DNA of 44,762 nt from a virus, in IMG/VR virus record IMGVR_UViG_3300030333_000819, positions 1-44,762 of that record; one strand, written 5' to 3'. Shown one piece after another: positions 10,054-40,364 of the stretch. The translations under genes and the position numbers were made by a program. A model generated the notes under the pieces. It saw nothing but the letters and a program-made list of their open reading frames with translations. It did not search any database and was not told the origin of the DNA. Within the stretch, counting starts at the first letter, position 1; every line of letters begins with the position of its first letter.

Positions 10054-10064
10054 TTGCCGGGCAT

Positions 10065-10272
10065 TGAGAATGATTATCAATTGCAATGCCGGTCTAGTTG
10101 CGAATGATTCTCGATTGCAACAACCCAATTGCGAATGATTATCAATTGCAATGCCGGTGCAGTTGCGAATGATTCGCATTTGCATTAACTATCTAGATGC
10201 GAATGATTATCATTGTCATTATCCGGCCATGCAATTACCATGCCAAGTTATTGATAATGATTATCATTTGCA
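10065..10272. repeat. Array of six 21-bp Fur-box-like repeats
   Basis: Copies are at 10065-10085, 10099-10119, 10130-10150, 10164-10184, 10198-10218 and 10252-10272. They share TGCGAATGATTATCATTTG followed by CA, with changes mostly in the right half; all retain the AATGATT core. Copy six contains TGATAATGATTATCA, the 7-1-7 inverted repeat that defines bacterial Fur boxes. Start-to-start distances are 34, 31, 34, 34 and 54 bp; the first four are about three helical turns, so bound proteins would lie on roughly one face of the DNA. The sites may be operators for a host Fur-like metalloregulator, sites for a phage regulator, or replication iterons. Confidence 0.85.
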
Positions 10273-38812: not shown

Positions 38813-39115
38813 TTAAGACACTTCTTTATTTTCAAATACGGTTGACGTATCCACTTTCTTTTTAGGAATCCGCTTCTTAGTCTGCAATACTGGGCGTTCT
38901 TTATCCGCATTATGAGTACGTGGGTGTTTTTTTATGTACGCATCTCCAGCTTTTTGAACATCAGTTATATTAGTATAGCTTCCACTCAATTCATTAGGAA
39001 TAGTTCCACCTTCTTTAAACATAAAATGCATAAAGCCATAAGGATTTCTATTTACAACAATAAGATTTTTATTTTGAGTCTTCCAATTAAGACCGTCTAC
39101 GACTCGTTCTTCCAT
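38813..39115 (-). CDS. Small protein between tail tubular genes, unknown
   Basis: The 100-residue protein (MEERVVDGLNWKTQNKNLIV...) overlaps the end of the adaptor gene by 29 bases and lies 9 bases before the nozzle gene. The N-terminal half could fold as a small alpha/beta domain (KNLIVVNRNPYGFMHFMFKE). The C-terminus is very basic (KKRIPKKKVDTS). It may be a tail assembly factor or a minor virion protein. No family is recognised. Confidence 0.7.
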   Translation of the reverse strand: MEERVVDGLNWKTQNKNLIVVNRNPYGFMHFMFKEGGTIPNELSGSYTNITDVQKAGDAYIKKHPRTHNADKERPVLQTKKRIPKKKVDTSTVFENKEVS

Positions 39116-39860
39116 AATCTACCCTTCCGTAGTAGTTACTTTGTGATGCGGCAATATTATGTCGATCTGATTGCCATCTAATTTTTTGCCTAAGAGATAC
39201 TTGCTCTGCTTTAGGATTAGCTCTTTGATTAATCTCAACATGAGCTACAGACTTGGCTTCGTTTAACAACCAAGGAAATAAATCAACGTCTAAATCAGGT
39301 ACAAAAGTATCTGACATTGTAAACGATGGCTCTTGTATTGCCCATACGATAAACTTACTAGACTGTAACGTACTATCTACTGCACTATCATATGAATCAA
39401 AAATTAAAAAGCTATCATCAAATGTAGTATAATAATCAGGAGCTTTATTGTTTGATATTAAAACTTCTCCACCATCTACAGCTACTGTAACAATAGTAGA
39501 ATCTGTTGAGTTTCTAGATAAAGAAAGTTGTAAGAAATCTTCTGGTTCCATCCAAGTAATACGATTATAATCTTTAGCTGTATCACCAGACTTTACAGTA
39601 TTATATCGTACTTCTTCAATACGTCTAATACCATCAGGAATTTGCATATGAGTAGGAGTAGCAGTTGAGCCTAATGCAGTTAACGTAATTAATTTACGAT
39701 GTTCAGGAACTTCAATATTATTAATTAAATCATAGTAAACATCCCGAATAACATAAGCAACTTGTTCTGATTCAATTGTATCAGAAAAACTGTTGACTGT
39801 ATCCGCATCCATTGAACTTAAAATACGTTGAGTCATATCTAATAACGTTAACTTAGGCAT
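39087..39860 (-). CDS. Tail tubular protein A / adaptor (T7 gp11-like)
   Basis: The 257-residue protein has the features of gp11-like adaptors, which link portal and nozzle. The N-terminal helices (MPKLTLLDMTQRILSSMDAD, EQVAYVIRDVYYDLINNIEV) are followed by PEHRKLITLTALGSTATPTHMQIPDGIRRIEEVRY and a C-terminal helical end (WLLNEAKSVAHVEINQRANP). Start ATG 39860 has GAGGAG 8 bases upstream, inside the preceding small gene. It is the usual neighbour of the nozzle gene. Confidence 0.87.
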   Translation of the reverse strand: MPKLTLLDMTQRILSSMDADTVNSFSDTIESEQVAYVIRDVYYDLINNIEVPEHRKLITLTALGSTATPTHMQIPDGIRRIEEVRYNTVKSGDTAKDYNRITWMEPEDFLQLSLSRNSTDSTIVTVAVDGGEVLISNNKAPDYYTTFDDSFLIFDSYDSAVDSTLQSSKFIVWAIQEPSFTMSDTFVPDLDVDLFPWLLNEAKSVAHVEINQRANPKAEQVSLRQKIRWQSDRHNIAASQSNYYGRVDYGRTSRRRS

Positions 39861-39865
39861 TAGGT

Positions 39866-40006
39866 CTACTCCTCAAAGTCCTGTACTAAATCTTTTTGAG
39901 GTACAGGTTCACACTTACAAGTTTCAGGATCACACTTACATCCTGTTTTACCACAACGAGAACACACACCTAGATTTTCTTTAGTTTGGTAGTCTTTGTT
40001 TACCAT
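39866..40006 (-). CDS. Cysteine-rich, metallothionein-like peptide (46 residues)
   Basis: A frame from ATG 40006 to TAG 39866 encodes MVNKDYQTKENLGVCSRCGK followed by TGCKCDPETCKCEPVPQKDL. Six cysteines lie within 18 residues, C15-x2-C18-x4-C23-x-C25-x4-C30-x-C32, with a duplicated CKC unit. This density and the CxC pairs are what metallothioneins use to bind Zn, Cu or Cd in clusters. It overlaps the upstream small basic gene by 7 bases, and its last codons supply the ribosome-binding site of the adaptor gene. Binding of one or two metal ions in a zinc-knuckle fold is the alternative. Confidence 0.75.
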   Translation of the reverse strand: MVNKDYQTKENLGVCSRCGKTGCKCDPETCKCEPVPQKDLVQDFEE

Positions 40007-40251
40007 TTTTTACAACTCCAATAACGTGCAGTTAGTTTACTAGGTTTGTTTGTGTCACATTTATGTCGCGCTCTAAAACTTTTTCTACGTTTAGGATTGT
40101 TCTTTTTAATACTCATATTAGCATCACCAAAACGAATTAGTTTTACAGTATCACCTTGTTTAGCTAATACCGCAAACTTTTTACCACCTTTACGTGATCG
40201 TTTAGGTTTATTGTATCCTGAAAAAGTTTCACCAGCACGAGTAATAGCCAT
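40000..40251 (-). CDS. Small basic protein conserved near phage tail genes
   Basis: The 83-residue protein contains ITRAGETFSGYNKPKRSRKG, FAVLAKQGDTVKLIRFGDAN and RRKSFRARHKCDTNKPSKLT followed by ARYWSCKKW. I recognise this AGETFSGYNKPKR ... LAKQGDTVKLIRFGD ... KRRKSFRARH pattern as a widespread protein of unknown function in marine phages, usually near tail genes. It is very basic and could bind DNA or a capsid component. It is coupled to the tiny gene upstream by TAATG. Confidence 0.85.
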   Translation of the reverse strand: MAITRAGETFSGYNKPKRSRKGGKKFAVLAKQGDTVKLIRFGDANMSIKKNNPKRRKSFRARHKCDTNKPSKLTARYWSCKKW

Positions 40252-40364
40252 TATGCATAGCCACGCCGCATTGGCTTTTTCTTTTTATCTTTCTTTTTAG
40301 CTACCATTTTACCAGTCTTAGAATAACCTTTCTTTTTATCCATCTTACCATTTTTACCGGGCAT
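40251..40364 (-). CDS. Tiny lysine-rich protein (37 residues)
   Basis: A frame from ATG 40364 to TAA 40251 encodes MPGKNGKMDKKKGYSKTGKM and VAKKKDKKKKPMRRGYA. Sixteen of 37 residues are Lys or Arg. AAAGGAG lies 8 bases before the ATG, the best such site in this gap, and the stop overlaps the next start (TAATG). Such peptides are common next to phage structural genes and could be DNA-condensing virion components, which is speculative. Confidence 0.75.
   Translation of the reverse strand: MPGKNGKMDKKKGYSKTGKMVAKKKDKKKKPMRRGYA

Follow-up and report, generated by a model that had tools for sequence, protein, structure and literature searches.

Bacterial metallothioneins (SmtA/BmtA, PF02069) are very small, cysteine-rich proteins of the cytoplasm that combine CxC and CxxC pairs. 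SmtA contains about 9-10 cysteines plus histidine. In the literature searched, which lay outside subscription journals, no phage or viral metallothionein is described.

Other described systems place cargo or metal in the phage particle. In phage T4, the prohead protease gp21 cleaves after (L/I)xE. The T4 internal proteins bear a capsid-targeting sequence (CTS) that is removed by gp21, and one of them, IPI, is injected (PMC3012670, PMC5694885). PMC3012670 describes their role as defence against host nucleases rather than as metal binding. Iron in phage tails has been proposed on the basis of HxH motifs in tail fibres (PMC11705849). A further group of small proteins, DUF5754/Tlr6F, is uncharacterised, yet conserved in polinton-like viruses, NCLDVs and phages (PMC12220804).

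The DNA analysed here (the window) is the 44,762-bp IMG/VR record of an uncultivated virus, a marine, podovirus-type phage. Its minus strand contains a gene for a six-cysteine (C6) mini-protein (39866..40006; 46 aa plus stop). Like the bacterial metallothioneins, C6 is very small and cysteine-rich, contains both CxC and CxxC, and is probably synthesized in the cytoplasm. It differs from them in having six cysteines and no histidine, in matching no profile, in belonging to a viral family and in carrying its own C-terminal tag. Fused C6 proteins share CTS-like N-termini (MKINEFITE, MKISELLNE) and [LIV]xE sites with the T4 internal proteins (IPI-IPIII, Alt), whereas the stand-alone window peptide lacks a CTS. 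DUF6321 (PF19846) and DUF5754/Tlr6F (PF19058) are neighbours of C6, and DUF6321 also occurs within the same protein. These modules are likewise small, cysteine-containing and widespread in phages, but they are strongly basic with two cysteines, while C6 is acidic with six, and the sequences are unrelated.

The preferred reading, to which we assign a probability of roughly 0.4, is that C6 is a metallothionein-like metal-binding peptide, produced late with the head and packaging proteins, docked through its tag, and packaged or injected.

The C6 gene and its relatives

The C6 product is MVNKDYQTKENLGVCSRCGKTGCKCDPETCKCEPVPQKDLVQDFEE. The sequence-only reading of the window had described a 46-residue product with six cysteines in 18 residues, and the ORF at 40006..39866 (minus) bears this out. 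The cysteines span C15 to C32 with the spacing CxxC-x4-CxC-x4-CxC, and the core, CSRCGKTGCKCDPETCKC (39911..39964, minus), can be written C-x2-C-G-x3-C-x-C-x-P-x2-C-x-C. A DNA pattern for this motif has a single match in the window, whereas 100 dinucleotide shuffles gave none. Histidine is absent from the peptide, and the aromatic residues, Y6 and F44, both lie outside the core.

The C6 gene begins, at its ATG, within the upstream gene (40251..40000), with which it shares 7 bp. A GGAG within the end of that gene (40016..40019, minus), about 9 nt before the ATG, is the likely ribosome-binding site. On the other side, a 5-bp gap (39861-39865) separates C6 from the adaptor gene. The gene had been described as embedded by overlaps, which is correct upstream and incorrect on the adaptor side.

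Relatives were found in two ways. A search of IMG/VR based on the tail adaptor returned 22 related loci, in several of which the corresponding position is taken by a cysteine-rich ORF, and a C6 profile built from eight sequences detected relatives at 66 uncultivated viral loci. Across 38 diverse aligned members all six cysteines are invariant, as are the glycine after the second and the proline after the fourth; the homologues with conserved cysteines that the earlier reading had suggested looking for therefore exist. In the family, pooled pS (0.70) is far above pN (0.23), showing that selection acts on the protein. The invariant cysteines and this ratio mark the ORF as a real gene with a conserved product. 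Scanning DNA for the C6 motif gave at least 119 stretches, a few of them spurious, being interrupted frames or chance hits to low-complexity DNA.

No family in Pfam, PHROGs, NCBIfam or PDB contains C6. When the window peptide and two relatives were compared by tblastn with 50,697 phage genomes, matches were at chance level only, and T4-like versions of the module gave zero matches in phage genomes. GTDB genome contigs yielded no cellular relative other than one false match, from Ferrimonas, which reflects local cysteine similarity inside a 4Fe-4S ferredoxin-like protein and was rejected as kin. The SmtA/BmtA profile (Metallothio_Pro, PF02069) detects nothing at E<=1 in the window and is absent from the Pfam matches of the 38 members; the Metallothio_6 profile (PF05522) matches one of the 38 (E=8e-4), probably through composition.

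Like a metallothionein, the window peptide is a small protein with clustered CxC and CxxC cysteines. Histidine occurs in no C6 core, and the median net charge of 52 distinct family proteins is -6, an acidity that argues against direct nucleic-acid binding. An AlphaFold model of the window peptide is of low confidence (pLDDT 61.5, pTM 0.31). The cysteine arrangement, the missing histidine, the acidity and the lack of a confident metal-free fold fit a metallothionein-like soft-metal peptide, and metal binding, deduced from the cysteine spacing, is likely. C6 would be a small, acidic peptide, largely without fixed structure, with its six thiolates wrapped around at least one soft metal ion in metallothionein fashion; Zn(II) or Cu(I) is a better candidate than Fe.

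Alternatively, the cysteines could pair or donate thiols rather than hold metal, making C6 a redox or disulfide peptide. The even number of cysteines would suit this, as would the extra cysteines present in some relatives. Such a role is highly improbable, given that thiolate clusters typically show CxC-x4-CxC spacing, that the window sequence reveals no signal peptide and that the bacterial cytoplasm is reducing.

Two variations on the basic sequence can be seen among the relatives. At L099 and L188 the C6 proteins carry added cysteine motifs (CPDCGKIGQSCDDPKTC upstream, CIKCGMEVCDC downstream), which suggests module duplication. Some C6 ORFs of different lineages (L035-L038, L063, L070, L085 and L086) have a common N-terminal stretch, M(F/S)GxxxVRAMEM, for which a real N-terminus, a start-site artefact and a shared DNA signal are all candidates.

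Genomic position and co-travelling modules

The upstream neighbour in the window (40000..40251, minus) encodes an 83-aa basic protein (net +21). It is DUF5754/Tlr6F-like by its profile matches, to PHROG 7595 at 5e-21 and to PF19058 at 24.2 bits, under the cut-off of 27.4. A 37-aa Lys-rich ORF (40251..40364, minus), taken from the ORF list, is retained in two related loci (L003 and L018). Downstream lies the tail adaptor (39087..39860, minus), recognised by a match to PHROG 7592 and by adaptor homology. It is about 40-46% identical to the adaptors of phages such as CRP-4, SIO1, Celeribacter P12053L and Pseudomonas PA11; CRP-4, like MEP402, is classified in the Zobellviridae.

To place C6 more widely, flanking genes were clustered and annotated, and the nearest annotated neighbours were tallied at the 66 loci. 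C6 lies between TerS and TerL in 14 loci and before TerL in 9 further ones; it is found between TerL and portal in 10 and before portal in 6 more. In 8 loci it is flanked by portal and a scaffold-like gene or stands directly before the latter. It precedes the tail adaptor in 7, all of one lineage, and follows an endolysin-type gene in 5; the remaining loci gave no clear placement. One lineage has C6 downstream of endolysin/holin-type genes instead of head genes, and at L025 and L026 the gene occupies a different site, downstream of lysis-type genes. At L090, the C6 and DUF5754-like genes are in swapped order.

This variable place among late genes indicates that C6 is a moving accessory gene and not a tail gene, as it had been read earlier: most relatives lie among terminase, portal, scaffold/MCP or lysis genes, and only the window lineage is adaptor-proximal. 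Its gene company fits virion-head cargo, and C6 is probably produced late, alongside head and packaging genes.

One contig, IMGVR_UViG_3300030109_001309 (69 kb; L003, L024, L090), contains two C6 genes and two adaptors and may represent two phages joined during assembly.

C6 often travels with other small modules. Many stand-alone C6 genes have DUF6321- or DUF5754-like genes close by, and in the TerS-TerL lineage DUF6321 is present nearby as a small gene (PHROG 10346-like). DUF6321 is also joined to C6 in several fused proteins. The cultured cyanophages P-TIM68 and DSL-LC02 have DUF6321-type proteins immediately upstream of TerL or flanked by TerS and TerL, the same placement as in the C6 TerS-TerL lineage. 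The P-TIM68 protein, AIR93437.1, contains a related-looking cysteine segment, CPHCSCEPCEC, and in DSL-LC02 a neighbour has the CTS-like start MKSFNQFLSE.

The sequence-only reading had also suggested that the peptide could load the tail with metal, which would agree with the idea of iron-carrying tails that exploit siderophore receptors. C6 does precede the tail adaptor in the window lineage, and a Fur-like array is present elsewhere in the window. Most relatives, however, lie among head and packaging genes. The HxH sites of the Ferrojan Horse hypothesis likewise concern proposed metal in the phage particle, but those of T4 gp37 hold His-coordinated iron in a trimeric fibre, whereas C6 has no histidine and is not part of a fibre, so the HxH idea does not apply to it. 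Iron loading of the tail is thus extremely improbable. The Fur-like array is itself real, but most other C6 phages checked lack it, so that a metal theme common to array and peptide is not established.

The array itself lies at 10060-10271, where AATGATTATCA occurs four times against 0.07 expected. The copy at 10252-10266 (TGATAATGATTATCA) forms a perfect 7-1-7 palindrome. Since some of the repeats diverge to GCGAATGATTCGC, the array may instead be an operator of the phage or an origin iteron. The nearest relative retains three copies.

C6 as a module of larger proteins

At many of the pattern-scan loci the identical spacing, from the first cysteine to the last and with the same glycine and proline, is found inside proteins of 137-1024 aa. 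The stand-alone profile matches these fused modules with E of about 1e-3 to 4e-9. Three of the contigs have a T4-type DNA polymerase (PHROG 262) nearby, and another has TerL and an ssDNA-binding protein. The window gene would then be the stand-alone version of a mobile module which, in T4-like phages, is built into modular proteins.

The proteins that contain the fused form appear to start with a capsid-targeting-like sequence and to carry sites resembling those of the prohead protease. In one group the N-terminus is MKINEFITE, MRITEVLTE or the like, followed in either case by SSKICPQCG. Thirteen of 30 C6 proteins have a CTS-like N-terminus, compared with 23 of 302 other ORFs, a difference with p about 1e-6. 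Of the 38 distinct fused contexts, 34 have [LIV]xE within 12 residues upstream of the first cysteine, against a background of 18%. Both statistics err on the optimistic side, since the fused sequences are related to one another and the CTS pattern was picked with the sequences already in view. The N-terminus of the window peptide, MVNKDYQTKENLGVC, contains no CTS ending in a gp21-type site.

Giant modular proteins can be found in T4-like contigs (L101, L107, L109, L128, L132, L166 and similar loci). They have repeated [LIV]xE/VAEG separators and shuffle C6, DUF6321, 'CWxxxKxVGTKKKGGKxVPNC', 'KYKSSINCSxPKGFSQKAHCAGKKK' and 'NAAQQAAIAIAKK'. In this organisation they look like head-cargo polyproteins.

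The C-terminal tag and the proposed role of C6

The window peptide ends in the tag LVQDFEE (39869..39889, minus), which was recognised by its conservation across the family. FE or FEE is the end of 42 of the 52 distinct C6 proteins, usually in the form (L/V)(I/V)Q(D/S)FEE, while none of 2430 other ORFs carries the tag. Conservation at the protein level suggests a docking motif, and the family-specific QDFEE may thus dock C6 on a specific partner.

In the preferred reading, that partner would most likely be in the assembling head, and the docked peptide, metal-loaded or metal-hungry, would be packaged or injected with the DNA. Both the virion location and the injection may apply. Against this, the window peptide itself lacks a CTS, its tag occurs in no other ORF examined and so is no general capsid tag, and one lineage keeps the gene behind endolysin/holin-type genes.

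C6 could instead be a late metal buffer outside the virion, which stays in the cell, holds Zn or Cu and is lost at lysis; the metal would come from degraded host proteins or serve as a supply for late enzymes. The cysteine pattern and acidity suit such a buffer equally, and so do a stand-alone gene without targeting sequence and its occasional position beside lysis genes. We consider it somewhat unlikely, as it leaves unexplained both the conserved family-specific tag and the fusion into CTS-bearing proteins with flanking protease sites.

A further alternative takes the tag as its starting point. The cysteine cluster could fold on one or two Zn, with the QDFEE tail docking on a phage or host protein, such as terminase, portal or a host factor, and altering its activity. 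The tail is conserved as protein with varying codons, whatever gene lies downstream, the core contains a CPxCG knuckle, and terminase and portal genes are frequently adjacent. No zinc ribbon or finger gave a significant Pfam or PDB profile match, however, and there is no confident fold; C6 has one CxxC, its other pairs being CxC, which is commoner in metallothioneins than in structural zinc sites. A zinc-module adaptor is accordingly doubtful.

The preferred reading can be extended to the family as a whole. C6 would then be a mobile phage metallothionein-like virion cargo, stand-alone with a docking tail in small genomes and released by prohead protease from T4-like polyproteins, that reaches the host alongside the DNA and controls metal there during the first minutes after infection. 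So broad a claim is rather unlikely to hold in full. C6 would constitute a metallothionein-like protein family of viruses. It also points to C6, DUF6321 and DUF5754 as small modules exchangeable across unrelated phages, present as single genes or as apparent polyproteins, which opens the roles of DUF6321 and DUF5754, and that of metal early in infection, to testing.

Two other accounts of the C-terminus were rejected. A general capsid-targeting tag would not be confined to C6 proteins. The last two codons, GAGGAG (39869-39874), lie at the Shine-Dalgarno position of the adaptor gene, but this function alone does not account for the ending: FEE is retained upstream of many different genes, and its Glu codons occur in all four combinations (GAGGAG, GAGGAA, GAAGAA and GAAGAG). 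In the window lineage, GAGGAG may act as an added constraint.
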